A stretch of DNA of 64,000 bases from Candidatus Thiothrix sulfatifontis (lineage in GTDB: Bacteria > Pseudomonadota > Gammaproteobacteria > Thiotrichales > Thiotrichaceae), in the NCBI GenBank assembly GCA_022828425.1, contig CP094685.1, positions 1,798,001 to 1,862,000 on the forward strand, written 5' to 3'. Of this stretch, positions 45,255-51,249 are shown piece by piece. The notes under the pieces are model-generated. The model made no database searches and was not told the DNA's origin. It saw nothing but the letters and a program-made list of their open reading frames with translations. Each line of letters opens with the position of its first letter. Within the stretch, counting starts at the first letter, position 1. A program made the translations under genes and the position numbers.

Positions 45255-45422
45255 ATGAGCACCGACACGGCAAGACCATCTGTTAATCCTTTGTTGTCTT
45301 CTGTTCCCGCTGATCAGCTTTTGCACGTGCGCGATGGTATCCGTCGGCGGCAAGCTTTTTCGATTTTTGCAAATAACTTTACCGATCTTAACTTAGTCTT
45401 TAATTCAGGAGAAAAGAAATGA
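45255..45422 (+). CDS. 55-residue peptide gene coupled to the MNIO cluster
   Basis: ATG 45255 has AGGA eight bases upstream. The product begins MSTDTARPSVNPLLSS, has a basic centre GIRRRQAF and ends LVFNSGEKK. Its TGA overlaps the ATG of the 413-residue gene as ATGA, so the two are translationally coupled. It has no Cys, so it is not a typical MNIO substrate. It may be a leader, a small partner protein or a translation-coupling ORF. Confidence 0.6.
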   Translation: MSTDTARPSVNPLLSSVPADQLLHVRDGIRRRQAFSIFANNFTDLNLVFNSGEKK

Positions 45423-46660
45423 GTAAAATTTGGCAAGATAAAATGAAAAACATGACACGTTCGATTTCGCCTGGTGTTAGTGGTGATGAAGATCTTGGTC
45501 CTTTTAAATGGTTACCACAAGGAGTTTGGCAAAATAATGGGAAGCAATTCGGATTTAATATCATCGCACTTCCCTTTAAAGATGCCGACCAAGCAGAATC
45601 CCGTGGCTATCGTGTGTTGACGAATAAATATTTGGAAGCGTTAGAGTTCACGACGGTTGATAAAGCCGTACCAAACCGTGGTGTTGAACCGGCAAGTGAG
45701 TGTGAAAATGACACTGATTTAGTCGAAAAATGCCATAAAAGCGATAATATCGAACCCGGAAAATTCACAACTGTAGATCAAAGAGTACTCACTTTGAATT
45801 ACATTCAGATGATTTCGCAAGTAGAAGCAATTAGTTTTCCTGATGTTCCAACAGAAGATGGTTCAAAAGAAACAGGAACAGTTTGCAAAAAAATTCATCA
45901 TGAACCTGGTTTGTTTCTGCGTACGACAAATCCTGTCGAAACAATTATCCAAAGAAAACCAACGGTGCGAAATATCCCTCTAAATTTGGCTCGATTGGCA
46001 ACGATTCCACACGGTAATTCCGTGTTAGCGCTAGGTAGCTGTGAAATTTTGGAGTATTCAAAAAAGGAACTCAAAAAAATCACAGATGCAATCAATGGTG
46101 ATGAAGCAGATGACGCAATGCGTGAATACCTTGCAATTCCTGAAGACAGTATTCTTATGGGAATGCCGCAAGGAACCACGCAAGATTTAGTGAACGCTGG
46201 GTATTTGGAGCCATATCGAGAAACAATAATTGATAAAGGTACAGATGATGAATTTAATCCAGTAGTGCCTCAAGCAAGATTGTTCAAAGATCTCAAGAAA
46301 GCACTTGGCGTTGAGAATTTTAAAATTAACGGCGATTTTCCAATAAAAAGGACTACTAAAATATATTTTGATACTGACTTCGGTACGGGGGGGATTCTCA
46401 ATATTCCATTTGTCACTAGGCAAGCAAATGCTGCTGCAATGCGAGCCACATTTTGGATTCATGAATTAGACGAACCTGTAGGTGATACTGAACCTAAACT
46501 AATTTTGCAGTATCTACAAACTGTAATTTTAGATTTCCATGTCATTCGTTCTGATGACTTGCCTGGTCGAATTCGCTGGCCTCACATATCCATTAACACA
46601 ATGATCAAAGGCGTCCACAAACCTAGAGATCCTTGCGAGGAAACACAAAGTAAAATCTAA
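45419..46660 (+). CDS. Unassigned 413-residue protein of the MNIO cluster
   Basis: AGGAGA lies six bases before ATG 45419. The N-terminus, LGPFKWLPQGVWQNNG-KQFGFNIIALPF, and the later IPHGNSVLALGSCEI and LQYLQTVILDFHVI blocks give a strand-rich pattern that weakly recalls lipocalin or nitrobindin-like heme-binding barrels. This similarity is only an impression. No signal peptide is seen. It is separated from the ferritin-like gene by 60 bp and shares that gene's low GC. It likely acts with the ferritin-like enzyme, for example as a small-molecule or heme-binding partner. Confidence 0.7.
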   Translation: MSKIWQDKMKNMTRSISPGVSGDEDLGPFKWLPQGVWQNNGKQFGFNIIALPFKDADQAESRGYRVLTNKYLEALEFTTVDKAVPNRGVEPASECENDTDLVEKCHKSDNIEPGKFTTVDQRVLTLNYIQMISQVEAISFPDVPTEDGSKETGTVCKKIHHEPGLFLRTTNPVETIIQRKPTVRNIPLNLARLATIPHGNSVLALGSCEILEYSKKELKKITDAINGDEADDAMREYLAIPEDSILMGMPQGTTQDLVNAGYLEPYRETIIDKGTDDEFNPVVPQARLFKDLKKALGVENFKINGDFPIKRTTKIYFDTDFGTGGILNIPFVTRQANAAAMRATFWIHELDEPVGDTEPKLILQYLQTVILDFHVIRSDDLPGRIRWPHISINTMIKGVHKPRDPCEETQSKI

Positions 46661-46720
46661 TGATTTCAAGTTTTTACAAATAACATATTGGTTGCCACAT
46701 CATCTAGGAAAGTAATATTT

Positions 46721-49330
46721 ATGCTTACTAATAGAAACCCCAAGCACAAAGAAACCGACAAAGCAGCATTAATTGCTATCATACAAATGGCAGTTAATGT
46801 TGAATTGTTTACCATTCCGCTATACATGAGCAGCATGTATTCTATCAAGGGCTTTCACCAAGTAACATTTGGGAATAAATTCGATGTTTACAAAAACCGT
46901 CAGTGGCCCGGCATCAAACCTTTAGCTAATGAAGTTAATGAAAACCAAAAAGCATTTAATGCTATGTTTGGGATTTTTATTCAAGAAATGTTTCATCTTG
47001 AATTGGTTGCTAATATTTCGTCGGCTATTGGCATAAAACCTTGTTTTACGCATTCTGCCTTGCAGGACGGTGATCACGGTTGGACATGCTATGGCAGTGA
47101 CAAAACTATGATTCCGGGCATTGTTGATTTACGTGATACAACACGTTACTCGCATGTGAAAGTTAATTTAGGACCATTAAATTTGGAAATGGTCAGTCTC
47201 ATGCTTGCTATTGAACAACCAGAGGAACAGGCAAAAAGCTCGATAAAGCCAGAGGCGTTAGAGCGTTATTTTCCCACTGTACCGTTTGACGGATGGAGTG
47301 CCTGCGACCCGCTGCCTTTGTTTGGCTCCATTGGGCATATGTACGAATGTTTGTTAAAATATGCTTGCATCAAGTATTCGGATGATCCTAGTAAAACCCT
47401 GTTCCAGATACTGTATGAAGCAGCAGAGCCAACCAGAATCCAAAACTTCATATTCAATAAGGAAATTCCACCGGATCACCTTGGCATAGAATTCCCAAGT
47501 ATAAAAACCACATTTAATTGTGTAGCTCCAGAAGATTCTAACGATCAACTGCAAGACATGGTTAATGCAATTGTTGATCAAGGGGAAGGGCATTCCTCCG
47601 AGGGGATCTCACTATTCCCCCTAACATCAGATACTGAATGTTCATCGGTTTACAGTAGTGATTTCGTTTACAGGTTGCGCTGTGAATACTTGATTTATCA
47701 GATTTTTGGGATTTTTATTAATCCGCCTTGTGATTCTACCAATGGCTACAATATGAATGGTTTTGGAGAACATTTCTTGGTTACTTTGATGAAATCTCAT
47801 CCAGACGAAAAGAGCCTTAAAGAAAAAATGGTGTTTGATGCAGATAATATTATTAAAAACAGTACAAAATTTGAACAAAAACAAAGTAATCATGGTTCAA
47901 ACAGATTAAAGAACCATATTGTTTACATGCAAAAACGCGCACAAAGAGAAAATTGGAACATCAATTTTGATGAGGTTGAAAAGCTGCTCGACGTAAAATA
48001 TCTCAATGAACACTTAAGAGATGTTAGCGACAAGTTAGATGAGAAGGATATAACTGATATTGTCAAATATTATGGAACGCCAAAATGGAAAGATTTTTCC
48101 TCGAAGGCTCCTATAGTAAAATATTTCGGAAAACTTTATTTATTGCAACGTTTATCGGCATACCTAGAGGGTCGCAGCAATTTCAAAATGACTCAGTATG
48201 ATGTTTGTTGTTGGGAAAATTTTGTTTTTGCTGCGCACCAACCCGACAAAAATGCCATGAATACAAATTACCCCTCTTTCGATGCATGTGGGATAAAAGA
48301 ACCGCAATCTGCTGATGCTGAAGCACGGTGTGATTACGCTCGTTTTACGCACTATAAACGTCTCCAAGAAATTCGCGAGAACTTGTGCGATATTGAAACA
48401 TGGGTCGATTGGCATAAAGCAGGGAACTGCTGGACGAGTGACATGCTGGAAACCAACGATGACTGCGACTATCCTGTCCGACAGCCTAACTTGTGTAATC
48501 CCTCGCCTCTGCCATCAACCAAGGCAATTGCTGCTGCGATGAACGAACTGAAAGCACTGCGCGGCACCTCATCTGACCGTTTTGATGACCTGAATCGCGT
48601 TGCCGTCGGTGGTATCTACGGTATTGTTCAATCACTGCGCGAGTTTTGGAATAAGGATAATGTAGACGCTAAAGGTAATGTAAATTTTACGCTGCCTTTA
48701 GGTGCTATGCGTGCCTCACACGGACGTATGTCCATTATCTGGGCAGTTTATGGTGAAACTCCAAATCTGAGCCTGGGTATTGGCAATCCTGACAAGCTGG
48801 CTACCCTCCACAATGCTTGTCAAGGGCTGAGCTTTGATAATCCGGGTAACAGTTGTGCCGCACGAGAGGCTTACCACACCTGTGCCGGTGCCAACTCATG
48901 CAGAACGCAAGGCGCTTGTGGAACGGTAGCAAAAGACTGCGAAACTTTGGTCACTGAGCCGTTAGAATGCGCTAAAAAAGCTGCTGATATATATTCCCCT
49001 CCTGCTGACAACCAGTGTAAATCATTAGGAGGATGCGCTGTGCCTATATCCGCATCACAGCTCCTACGTGTTAGTAGACAAGATTTCCGGGACGAATCAG
49101 GCAAGCGTATCGACGCTGATTTCACTATGAAACTGTACGACTTTGTTAGTGCAGCAAATAATCCGCCCAATCAACCACGCTACTTGGAGCAAACTATCAC
49201 CTTCAAGCAAGGTGAATCGGTTTACGACACAGCTTGGAAAGCCTACACGAAGGTGATGGAGACCAGAAGCAAAGATCCGGGGACAAAACCGGAAACTGAC
49301 CTGATTCGTTTGGTATTGGCTCCCGTGTAA
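46721..49330 (+). CDS. Ferritin-like (VioB-type) protein with Cys-rich C-terminal domain, probable MNIO substrate
   Basis: An 869-residue protein. The N-terminal domain matches the ferritin-like iminophenyl-pyruvate dimer synthase (VioB) type: Glu28 in NVELFTIPLYM and E89-M-F-H92-x-E94, the acidic/His ligands of a di-iron site. A long middle region (about 250-690) is not assigned. Residues 700-772 hold nine Cys, with CAGANSCRTQGAC (CX5CX5C) and CKSLGGC (CX5C); CxGxNxCxGxGGC-like blocks are what I associate with DUF692-linked proteins. ATG 46721 follows TAGGAA by 10 bases. A terminator and then an MNIO gene follow. The 3' third is visibly richer in GC than the 5' part, so the protein may be a fusion. 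Confidence 0.78.
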   Translation: MLTNRNPKHKETDKAALIAIIQMAVNVELFTIPLYMSSMYSIKGFHQVTFGNKFDVYKNRQWPGIKPLANEVNENQKAFNAMFGIFIQEMFHLELVANISSAIGIKPCFTHSALQDGDHGWTCYGSDKTMIPGIVDLRDTTRYSHVKVNLGPLNLEMVSLMLAIEQPEEQAKSSIKPEALERYFPTVPFDGWSACDPLPLFGSIGHMYECLLKYACIKYSDDPSKTLFQILYEAAEPTRIQNFIFNKEIPPDHLGIEFPSIKTTFNCVAPEDSNDQLQDMVNAIVDQGEGHSSEGISLFPLTSDTECSSVYSSDFVYRLRCEYLIYQIFGIFINPPCDSTNGYNMNGFGEHFLVTLMKSHPDEKSLKEKMVFDADNIIKNSTKFEQKQSNHGSNRLKNHIVYMQKRAQRENWNINFDEVEKLLDVKYLNEHLRDVSDKLDEKDITDIVKYYGTPKWKDFSSKAPIVKYFGKLYLLQRLSAYLEGRSNFKMTQYDVCCWENFVFAAHQPDKNAMNTNYPSFDACGIKEPQSADAEARCDYARFTHYKRLQEIRENLCDIETWVDWHKAGNCWTSDMLETNDDCDYPVRQPNLCNPSPLPSTKAIAAAMNELKALRGTSSDRFDDLNRVAVGGIYGIVQSLREFWNKDNVDAKGNVNFTLPLGAMRASHGRMSIIWAVYGETPNLSLGIGNPDKLATLHNACQGLSFDNPGNSCAAREAYHTCAGANSCRTQGACGTVAKDCETLVTEPLECAKKAADIYSPPADNQCKSLGGCAVPISASQLLRVSRQDFRDESGKRIDADFTMKLYDFVSAANNPPNQPRYLEQTITFKQGESVYDTAWKAYTKVMETRSKDPGTKPETDLIRLVLAPV

Positions 49331-49340
49331 CCTCTCCCGG

Positions 49341-49378
49341 CATTACCCGCTGCTTGTGTTAGCGGGTAATGCTTTTTT
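49341..49378 (+). terminator. Intrinsic terminator between ferritin-like and MNIO genes
   Basis: CATTACCCGCT-(9 bases)-AGCGGGTAATG then CTTTTTT: perfect 11-bp stem, 9-base loop, six T. It lies 11 bp after the ferritin-like stop and 19 bp before the MNIO start. Read-through would give a lower level of enzyme than of substrate. Confidence 0.88.
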
Positions 49379-49396
49379 AACAGAAAAACCAAATTT

Positions 49397-50317
49397 ATGG
49401 CAACTTCCACTAAATTATCGCGTATGGGTTATCCCAACTTGGGTTATGGTGTTGGCTTAAGAAATAAGCACTTAAAGCATATTCTTTCGCACGGCGCTGG
49501 GGTCGATTGGTTTGAAATCATCAGTGAAAACTTCATTGGTAATTATGGTTATGCCCGCTATGCACTGGATAGTATCCGCGAACGCACTCCGCTTGTCATG
49601 CATGGCGTGTCGCTTTCCATCGGCAGCACAGACCCTTTAAATATGACTTATTTGAAGCAATTAAAAGCACTTGCGGCGGAATTATCACCAGTATGGATTT
49701 CAGATCACCTGTGCTGGACAGGCGTTTCAGGCATCAATTCACATGACCTTTTACCGTTACCACTAACAGAAGAAGCTTTGTATCATGTGGCAACCCGACT
49801 CAATATCGTGCAAGATTATCTAGGGCAGCCTATTATTTTGGAAAATCCTAGCACATATCTGGAGTTCACACATTCCACCCTCCCTGAATGGACATTTTTA
49901 GCAGAATTAACACAGCAAACAGGTTGTGGTCTGTTATTGGATTTGAATAATATTTATGTTTCTAGTCATAATCATGGTTATGATCCATTTGATTATCTTA
50001 AGGCAATACCGCTGGATAAAGTGGTTCAAATTCACTTGGCGGGTCCTACGTATCACGCCCCCTATCTTATTGATACCCATGACCAACCAGTTCCAACAAT
50101 TGTATGGCAACTATACGCTCGTTTGATTGAACTCACAGATGGCGTCTCAACGCTATTGGAGTGGGATTCTAATATCCCTAGTTATCCTGAGTTATTAAAA
50201 GAACTGTATAAGGCAAAAATGGTGAGAGATGGTCACATTCCTGACCATTCACCGTTACTAATACCGTCTAGCCCTCCCGTCTCGACACCCTTAAATTATC
50301 AGCTTGGTGGCGTATGA
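49397..50317 (+). CDS. MNIO (DUF692) multinuclear iron oxidase
   Basis: A 306-residue TIM-barrel protein of the DUF692 family, which modifies Cys (or Asp/Asn) residues of ribosomal peptides using two or three irons. Conserved ligand regions are visible: MHGVSLSIG, WISDHLCW, ENPSTYLEF, LLDLNNIYV, IHLAG and LEWDSNIP. The name BufB is used when it acts on bufferins. The ribosome site is weak (no AGG before ATG 49397). The DUF2063 gene follows in an ATGA overlap. The substrate is not a nearby small Cys peptide; the nearest Cys-rich protein is the ferritin-like gene upstream. Confidence 0.93.
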   Translation: MATSTKLSRMGYPNLGYGVGLRNKHLKHILSHGAGVDWFEIISENFIGNYGYARYALDSIRERTPLVMHGVSLSIGSTDPLNMTYLKQLKALAAELSPVWISDHLCWTGVSGINSHDLLPLPLTEEALYHVATRLNIVQDYLGQPIILENPSTYLEFTHSTLPEWTFLAELTQQTGCGLLLDLNNIYVSSHNHGYDPFDYLKAIPLDKVVQIHLAGPTYHAPYLIDTHDQPVPTIVWQLYARLIELTDGVSTLLEWDSNIPSYPELLKELYKAKMVRDGHIPDHSPLLIPSSPPVSTPLNYQLGGV

Positions 50318-51177
50318 CAATGCCTGAATTGCAACAAATCCAAGCATGGATGATAACCGCTTTAGCAAATCCAGTCGGTTTGAACCAAGGACTCACACAC
50401 GCAACGTTACGCCACGATTTGTTGGCAAACGACATTATCCGGGGGGATTACCAAGGGCGTTTGAGCATTTACTTCAATAGCTACTCCCTAAGATTATTAC
50501 AATGCCTCGAAGCTGATTTTCCTGCCTTAAAAAATGTGATGGGTAAAGAATTATTCGACTTTTTCGCTTTGACGTATATTTTGAATCATCCCTCACAATC
50601 AACCACCCTATTTGATTTAGGTGCGAGTTTTGCTGATTTTCTTGGGCAAACCCAAACTAAAGACAACACCATGCCTTTTGAATGGGATACACACCTGCAA
50701 TTACCGCTAGATTTAGCTAGACTGGAAAGAAAAAGAACCGAAGTCATGCGAGAAAGAGGTTTGGAACACACACAGTCTATTTATTTTATTGAACCACACA
50801 ATTATCTCCAGCAATCTGACATCATATTAGTTACCCCCCCTTGCCTACGGCTGCTGGAACTTTCCTTTCCACTGATTCCTTTTTTGCAAGCTATTGATAA
50901 AGGAGATGCCTCACCCGCCATTCCTTTGCCACAAGAGAGTTTTGTTGCGATTACCCGGCTGAACTTCCAAGTTTCATTATACACCTTGCAACCTTGGCAA
51001 TACCATTTTCTAATGACGCTTCAGAAAACACCCGATATTCACCAAAACATAGATATTATTGCACAGATAACGGGATTTTCTGCTAACTCTTTACAAGATG
51101 CATTAATATATTGGTTGCCGATTGCTGTAGAGACAGGGCTAATTCATCCAACCCGATCACTAGAAAAGACATGGTGA
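50314..51177 (+). CDS. DUF2063 MNIO partner protein (BufC-like)
   Basis: A 287-residue protein. The N-terminal part (LQQIQAWMITALANPVGLN, YQGRLSIYFNSYSLRLLQCL, DFPALKNVMGKELFDFFA) is the DUF2063 domain that accompanies MNIO enzymes and is thought to bind the substrate leader. The C-terminal part has a winged-helix look (IIAQITGFSANSLQDALIYWL). It is translationally coupled to the MNIO gene and ends facing a histidine kinase gene 72 bp away. Confidence 0.87.
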   Translation: MTMPELQQIQAWMITALANPVGLNQGLTHATLRHDLLANDIIRGDYQGRLSIYFNSYSLRLLQCLEADFPALKNVMGKELFDFFALTYILNHPSQSTTLFDLGASFADFLGQTQTKDNTMPFEWDTHLQLPLDLARLERKRTEVMRERGLEHTQSIYFIEPHNYLQQSDIILVTPPCLRLLELSFPLIPFLQAIDKGDASPAIPLPQESFVAITRLNFQVSLYTLQPWQYHFLMTLQKTPDIHQNIDIIAQITGFSANSLQDALIYWLPIAVETGLIHPTRSLEKTW

Positions 51178-51249
51178 ATATTGTACTTATTTCATCGAGT
51201 ATCCGATTGCCAATGCAGTGATATGACAATTAACGCACGTTTACCTAAA

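Follow-up and report, generated by a model that had tools for sequence, protein, structure and literature searches.

A Cys-rich tail on a ferritin-like enzyme of Candidatus Thiothrix sulfatifontis as the probable substrate of a dedicated MNIO

MNIO enzymes are known for acting on short precursor peptides. In the cases studied, an MNIO together with a DUF2063-type partner (MNIO-PME1) installs 5-thiooxazoles on Cys, with associated copper binding, and the authors of that work consider that further work is needed on whether 5-thiooxazole is the sole modification (PMC13097082). Joining of an MNIO precursor domain to a larger functional domain has been reported for bufferins, namely Buf1 with Cytochrom_C and FGE-sulfatase, MerC with Buf1 and MerC with Buf2, though the instances are few and at least the MerC ones are on the periplasmic side; the main survey of the field raised the modification of proteins by MNIOs as a possibility (PMC12452194). 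The 64,000-nucleotide stretch of Candidatus Thiothrix sulfatifontis DNA considered here, hereafter the window (contig CP094685.1, positions 1,798,001 to 1,862,000), contains what may be a clean and testable case with a full-size protein. An 869-residue protein composed of a PF12902 ferritin-like enzyme part and a C-terminal Cys-rich domain, the tail, is encoded just upstream of genes for an MNIO and a DUF2063 protein, and the sequence comparisons below indicate that the tail is, in all likelihood, an MNIO precursor which became joined to a neighboring enzyme and spread. Unlike the reported bufferin fusions, this type recurs in five phyla and its MNIOs form one clade.

The described system with most in common is that of Bufferin 2 and the Cys-Lys captophorins (BufA2-BufB2-BufC2). 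Shared with it are an enzyme of the MNIO_BufB type, a DUF2063 partner and the CxGxNxC[K/R] motif, and where the precursor is encoded separately it matches the BufA2 model NF050166, though below its cut-off. The differences are a precursor that falls short of the BufA2 cut-off and has no evident signal peptide, its location fused to or beside a ferritin-like enzyme, and Ala or Ser in place of Asp after the catalytic-base motif of the MNIO.

The fusion gene (46721..49330, + strand) encodes 869 residues from an ATG; its longest open reading frame (ORF) has a TTG start and specifies 880. Residues 1-684 (46721..48772) constitute the enzyme part and residues 685-869 (48773..49330) the putative precursor domain, within which is a Cys core (residues 700-772; 48818..49036) with Cys at 700, 712, 721, 727, 733, 740, 750, 766 and 772. 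The MNIO gene (306 residues; 49397..50317) and the gene for the DUF2063 partner (287 residues; 50314..51177), which is BufC/PME-type-1-like, follow on the same strand. A preliminary description made from the letters alone had placed five co-directional, AT-rich genes here, and their positions on the + strand and composition (39-44% GC per gene versus 49.5% for the window) agree with it, as do the nine Cys with their CX5CX5C (721/727/733) and CX5C (766/772) blocks. Its family assignments for the two downstream genes are likewise confirmed: the MNIO (DUF692) scores 351.2 bits with PF05114 (cut-off 25) and 351.8 bits with NF050167, MNIO_BufB (cut-off 310), and the DUF2063 partner 61.4 bits with PF09836 (cut-off 27.2), for which P0008 and five others tested give 52-68 bits. 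The partner is below the cut-off of NF050145 and reaches 33.4 of 142 bits with the HvfC model; for the C-terminal RRE-type domain, P0008 matches NGO1945_C at E 0.0027, under that model's cut-off.

A scan of genome contigs with the window protein alone gave no match. Among plasmids, relatives are present in two Pseudoalteromonas replicons, and in the one fetched (L006) the fusion gene is again followed by MNIO and DUF2063; alignment of the window protein with the Pseudoalteromonas relative gave 95 confirmed loci in a scan of one genome per species whose patterns came solely from the N-terminal ferritin-like domain. The window, L006 and the best 80 of the 95 by tblastn E-value make up the 82 fused loci discussed below, from Pseudomonadota, Bacteroidota, Actinomycetota, Acidobacteriota and Ignavibacteriota. 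The tail is present in all 82. Six of its Cys (C700, C721, C727, C733, C766 and C772) are invariant, C740 is in 81, C712 in 72 and C750 in 4, and H719, G723, N725 and the stretch GGCAVPISAxQ are kept in 81 or 82. Lys or Arg follows C721 in 78/82 and C727 in 67/82, as in the Cys-Lys class. Directly downstream of the fusion gene is an MNIO gene in 80 of the 82 and a DUF2063 gene in 79, including L024 and L081 in which the latter is cut by the contig end; the misses (both genes in L016 and L069, DUF2063 in L056) are all at contig ends. No further neighbor family occurs in more than 11 of the 82 (ORFs of at least 70 residues, BLAST 1e-8), and the neighbor clusters that do recur chiefly reflect local synteny among species of Sphingomonas and of Mucilaginibacter. 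The recurrence of Cys pattern, gene order and partners in five phyla is more than chance. The earlier statement that no short Cys peptide is encoded here agrees with the wider set: a search of the 82 loci for a further ORF of BufA2-like or tail-like type gave none, and on the window's genome the tail profile has one match, the 869-residue protein itself (12 of 17 first-look candidates scored).

Natural split forms provide the strongest support, and an independent one, for the tail being a precursor. In seven loci (L158, L167, L169, L170, L172, L182 and L183) the counterpart of the tail is a gene of its own for about 200 residues. All but L158 have, in this order, a stand-alone PF12902 gene (457-533 residues, stop to stop), a Cys-rich ORF (208-235 residues), an MNIO gene and a DUF2063 gene; in L158 the order is precursor, MNIO, DUF2063, PF12902. 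The split Cys-rich proteins align with the fused tail, its C-terminal part included, with probability 98.0 and E 2.3e-13 over 108 columns (hhalign), and contain two copies of CxGxN/CxxLN-type motifs; the CxGxNxC[K/R] motif is present once in the fused tail (C721-C727) and twice in the BufA2 proteins compared. A profile of five split precursors has matches in 7/395 genomes of the Chitinophaga phylum, four of which were the source of profile rows; a split-precursor query had none among plasmids. The new matches in G950 and G927 (L182 and L183) also have PF12902, MNIO and DUF2063, whereas in G799 (L184) the match is to a plain BufA2-like ORF, accompanied by an MNIO of its own but no PF12902, and detected by the tail profile as well (E 2e-6 and 2.4e-5 in two scans). 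All five split precursors tested match the BufA2 model at E of at most 10, the best at 7.5e-5 though still below the cut-off and the first member at 7e-4 with 19.8 bits, and the split-precursor profile in turn picks up BufA2-like proteins at 1e-5 to 5e-2, with 1e-4 to 5e-2 for one set of BufA2 proteins. One Saccharothrix genome holds both a fused (L013) and a split (L158) cluster.

In the places surveyed, whether PF12902 genes have an MNIO beside them follows whether they have a tail or precursor. The survey of PF12902 covered the window's class (274 genomes), the class of a Sphingomonas (289) and the phylum of a Chitinophaga (296), each set drawn evenly from a larger group, and does not share the tail-favoring bias of the 80-locus set. 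With the three center genomes left out there are 21 places, all of them fetched. Seven have a tail or a separate precursor: L140, L141 and L164 are fused (L164 is apparently identical with L035, the contigs being equally long and the MNIO the same), and L167, L169, L170 and L172 are split, the separate ORF of L167 being one that the whole-protein profile detects but the tail profile, at 1e-3, does not. MNIO and DUF2063 are in all seven, whereas the fetched DNA of the 14 others (L137-L139, L142, L143, L161-L163, L165, L166, L168, L171, L173 and L174, with short stretches of 3.9-8.6 kb for L137, L142, L162 and L165) has no MNIO, nor any split-precursor-like ORF even at E 0.1. Genome G773 has a PF12902 place with both precursor and MNIO and another PF12902 place with no MNIO. 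Five further PF12902 places in cassette-bearing genomes divide similarly: precursor, MNIO and DUF2063 are all present in L158, from Saccharothrix, and all missing in the remaining four. In the survey the tail was not seen away from an MNIO, and the earlier proposal that the Cys-rich domain is what the MNIO modifies gains computational support from this linkage and from the split precursors. On such comparative grounds it is highly probable that the tail is an MNIO substrate.

In a tree of 108 MNIO rows, 104 of them different and with several long branches flagged (L003, L158 and L184 included), the 83 rows from fused clusters group together (support 99/93; recovered in 98% of bootstraps). Their nearest neighbor is the enzyme of the Saccharothrix split cluster (99/91), then six of Bacteroidota split clusters (96/77, not starred), with L184, other BufA2-type and Buf1-type enzymes further out. 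That the fused MNIOs form one clade near the split ones fits a single fusion of neighboring genes followed by wide transfer. The residues that we take to be those for metal binding and base function (H69, D103, H104, E149, N150, D182, N184, H213, D226, H228, E255 and D257, numbered as in P0003) are in all 83 fused rows and, apart from D103 in 23, in all of 25 other rows.

The enzyme part had been called VioB-type, which is accurate for the PF12902 domain (72.8 bits, cut-off 22.3) but not for VioB itself, as the equivalog model TIGR04492 gives 11 bits versus a cut-off of 1250. With VioB, the iminophenyl-pyruvate dimer synthase, the fusion protein has in common that domain and, with a VioB-like protein, the candidate ligands described below; it lacks the approximately 590-residue N-terminal part of VioB and has the Cys tail. 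Among solved structures the nearest relative is that of a ferritin-like protein without fusion partner, CC_0557 of Caulobacter vibrioides (PDB 3hl1), with whose chain A model residues 1-684 share a fold (VIA-align Z 27.4, root-mean-square deviation 2.6 over 280 residues, 24% identity). That 317-residue chain has no Cys tail, and because the match covers model residues 1-684 the enzyme part ends where the tail begins. In the AlphaFold2 model, built with 51 sequences, 349 residues have a predicted local distance difference test (pLDDT) score of at least 90, nearly all in the ferritin-like part, and the Cys core is mostly below 50 (693-713, 720-732, 741-754, 762-774). Residues E28, E89, H92, E165, E289 and H544 are in 82/82 fused proteins and 21/21 rows of a mixed alignment of fused, split, MNIO-less and VioB-like members, and are a plausible di-iron ligand set. 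C123, in the ferritin-like part, and H46 are also in 82/82 but absent from the five split and six MNIO-less relatives aligned; this restriction to fused proteins suggests that the two residues may work jointly with the tail. An insertion of some 200 residues (approximately 297-500; 47609..48220, + strand), AT-rich at 33% GC, mostly low-confidence in the model, is mostly gaps in other members.

From the family identities, fusion boundary, Cys conservation, co-occurrence, split homologs and clade structure we infer modification, its chemistry, the metal, retention and the function of the enzyme as follows. The locus would be a portable three-gene cassette in which a ferritin-like di-iron enzyme has acquired a bufferin-2-like precursor at its C-terminal end. 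Its DUF2063 protein would present the Cys core (approximately 700-772) to the MNIO, and the MNIO would oxidize several core Cys, most likely to 5-thiooxazoles as in known MNIO-PME1 systems. The matured domain would probably stay attached in the cytoplasm and give the di-iron enzyme a bound copper or another metal or redox site; retention is suggested because the conserved three-gene unit has no evident signal peptide (judged by eye for the window fusion protein and the split precursors), protease or exporter. Taken whole, from fused precursor through modification to a retained metal or redox site, the proposal is in our judgment fairly probable; for its last part, that the tail stays attached as a working site, the chances seem evenly balanced. 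A tentative extension, which we would not yet favor, is that the di-iron enzyme has a ribosomally encoded, MNIO-made prosthetic group, with the attached, thiooxazole-bearing, copper-loaded tail joining in catalysis at the di-iron site, perhaps with C123 and H46; MNIO chemistry would then be enzyme cofactor biogenesis rather than secreted metallophore production. Split clusters would then supply the same prosthetic group in trans.

Several points weigh against this proposal. The tail alone gives just 10.5 bits with the BufA2 model (E 0.53, cut-off 60), and with a profile of 12 BufA2 proteins hhalign aligns 19 columns at probability 64, a score equalled by none of 200 permuted profiles. DUF2063-type partners have been tied to precursors with Sec signals (PMC12452194), and none is evident here. 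The residue after the MNIO catalytic-base motif is Ala in 78 of the 83 fused rows and Ser in the window, versus Asp in 9 of 11 rows of BufA2-type MNIOs (six of the 11 rows representing three genes, each counted twice); Asp has been described here for BufB2-type enzymes, and the position has been linked to substrate choice (PMC13097082), because of which the fused-cluster clade may have a specificity of its own. The ranking by tblastn E-value used for the 80 loci favors full-length members with the tail, and most loci were read for approximately 6 kb each side, some for less. The Fisher test for co-occurrence of tail and MNIO in the survey (p 8.6e-6, or 2.0e-5 without L143 and L174, both under the Pfam cut-off) treats genomes as independent, which the relatives L170 and L172 are not quite.

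The main rival, which we consider rather unlikely, is tailoring in cis, with the ferritin-like domain modifying its own MNIO-treated tail in a borosin-like manner and the product being a modified, perhaps released, peptide. Borosins, of the OphMA type and split, have the precursor at the enzyme C-terminus and occur in both fused and split forms (PMC7878506, PMC8429565), and here too the ferritin-like gene accompanies the precursor, split in the seven loci or fused, as would be expected of a pathway enzyme, with the candidate di-iron ligands intact in all classes aligned. In borosins, though, a methyltransferase acts on itself, while in the window's cassette a separate MNIO is the presumed modifier. 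The 14 of 21 surveyed PF12902 proteins that have no precursor indicate that peptide tailoring is not the general role of the family; release would call for a conserved protease or transporter gene or a signal peptide, none of which is evident in these loci, and the stretch after the Cys core (771-869, pLDDT 59-86 by tens) is partly folded. To our knowledge, self-modification by a ferritin-like part is not known.

Two further explanations were considered. That bufferins and fontiphorin bind copper, and that bufferins aid growth under copper stress (PMC12452194, PMC13097082), taken with the ferritin-like fold, would suit a matured tail serving as cytoplasmic copper or metal buffer, with the ferritin-like part for metal oxidation or storage alone. 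This is distinctly improbable, as bufferins are periplasmic whereas the fusion protein has no evident signal peptide, and the resemblance of the model to CC_0557 is far above that to bacterioferritin (Z 8.4-8.5). Alternatively, the tail could be a plain, unmodified Cys domain for metal or disulfides with the MNIO acting on an unlinked peptide; the further pair of MNIO genes in the window's genome, each with its own likely precursor, illustrates that several precursors per genome are possible. The strict linkage of tail and MNIO, the separate clade of the fused-cluster MNIOs, the homology of the tail to stand-alone precursors that are themselves remotely BufA2-related, and a failure to find another tail-like or BufA2-like ORF in the loci or the window's genome make this very improbable indeed.

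The fused precursor, modified and retained, which is the reading preferred here, would make the cassette a new form of MNIO-PME1 system. A fused enzyme and substrate had been presented in the preliminary description as a departure from known MNIO pathways. That is so only in part, since large fusions of bufferin precursors are already on record (PMC12452194), but none with PF12902 is in the literature searched: the main text of that survey does not contain the words ferritin or peroxidase, and its fusion section has no PF12902 fusion. The open-access papers on MNIO enzymes among the matches listed, with supplements and subscription papers outside the scope of the search, yielded no mention of VioB, PF12902 or ferritin. 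The case brings together an enzyme part that is folded and of di-iron type, a sharply defined fusion point, a Cys core that is conserved and a dedicated MNIO with its partner, and for controls there are the natural split versions and MNIO-less relatives. Should the tail prove to be modified and kept, it would represent a new way to build an enzyme cofactor from a protein's own Cys.

Upstream of the fusion gene are two genes that had been counted with the cluster; in the DNA fetched for the 81 remaining fused loci nothing matches either of them. The 55-residue ORF (45255..45422, + strand; no Cys and no family match) was considered as a precursor and rejected for these reasons and for not being cassette-specific, its start falling in a flank common to sister species without the cassette. 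The 413-residue protein (45419..46660, + strand), left unassigned earlier, is a heme-binding protein of the NF040572 (heme_bind_FMP) family, with 203.8 bits (cut-off 150). As it is near the window's cluster alone among the 82 fused loci (searched with a single-sequence profile), it is treated as accessory and not as a pathway member. FMP-type heme proteins (NF040572/NF040571) adjoin PF12902 in three loci, the window, the split cluster L183 (3641-4627) and L168 (4147-5682), where the PF12902 gene has no MNIO, and these hint at a partnership of heme and ferritin-like proteins. Against PDB sequences the window's heme protein has solely chance-level matches (E at least 0.88).

An intrinsic-terminator-like hairpin (49339..49378, + strand) of -23.9 kcal/mol (z -5.36; none of 200 shuffles as good) lies in the gap from the fusion gene to the MNIO gene. 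It could possibly set the synthesis of more substrate than maturase enzyme. A terminator scan of the region as a whole found 6 versus 5.6 expected, which is no enrichment, and the hairpin is not general: in most other loci the gap is too short for one, and among the 11 with more than 110 bases from the stop to the MNIO domain, three (L043, L048 and L064) have weaker stems (-12 to -16 kcal/mol) close to a T run, that of L064 being approximately 16 bases before it.

The two other MNIO genes of the window's genome (L002 and L003) each have a likely precursor of their own nearby, one of them Buf1-like and the other a protein with DGSCGAKK repeats that looks HvfA-like. There is one TAA inside the L002 match.

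No relative of the 869-residue protein was found in 56 other genomes searched from the genus, family and class, 15 of them of the same genus. The cassette (45297..51238, + strand) is missing in two sister species within the genus, L205 and L206, which are collinear with the window on both sides, as far as 45296 and again beginning at 51239 (91-94% identity, blastn), and have 1681 bp in its place. At the site read in one of them (L205, 12138-13818) is a 483-residue ORF that looks like a vanadium-dependent haloperoxidase, and oxidative enzymes may vary from species to species at this site.

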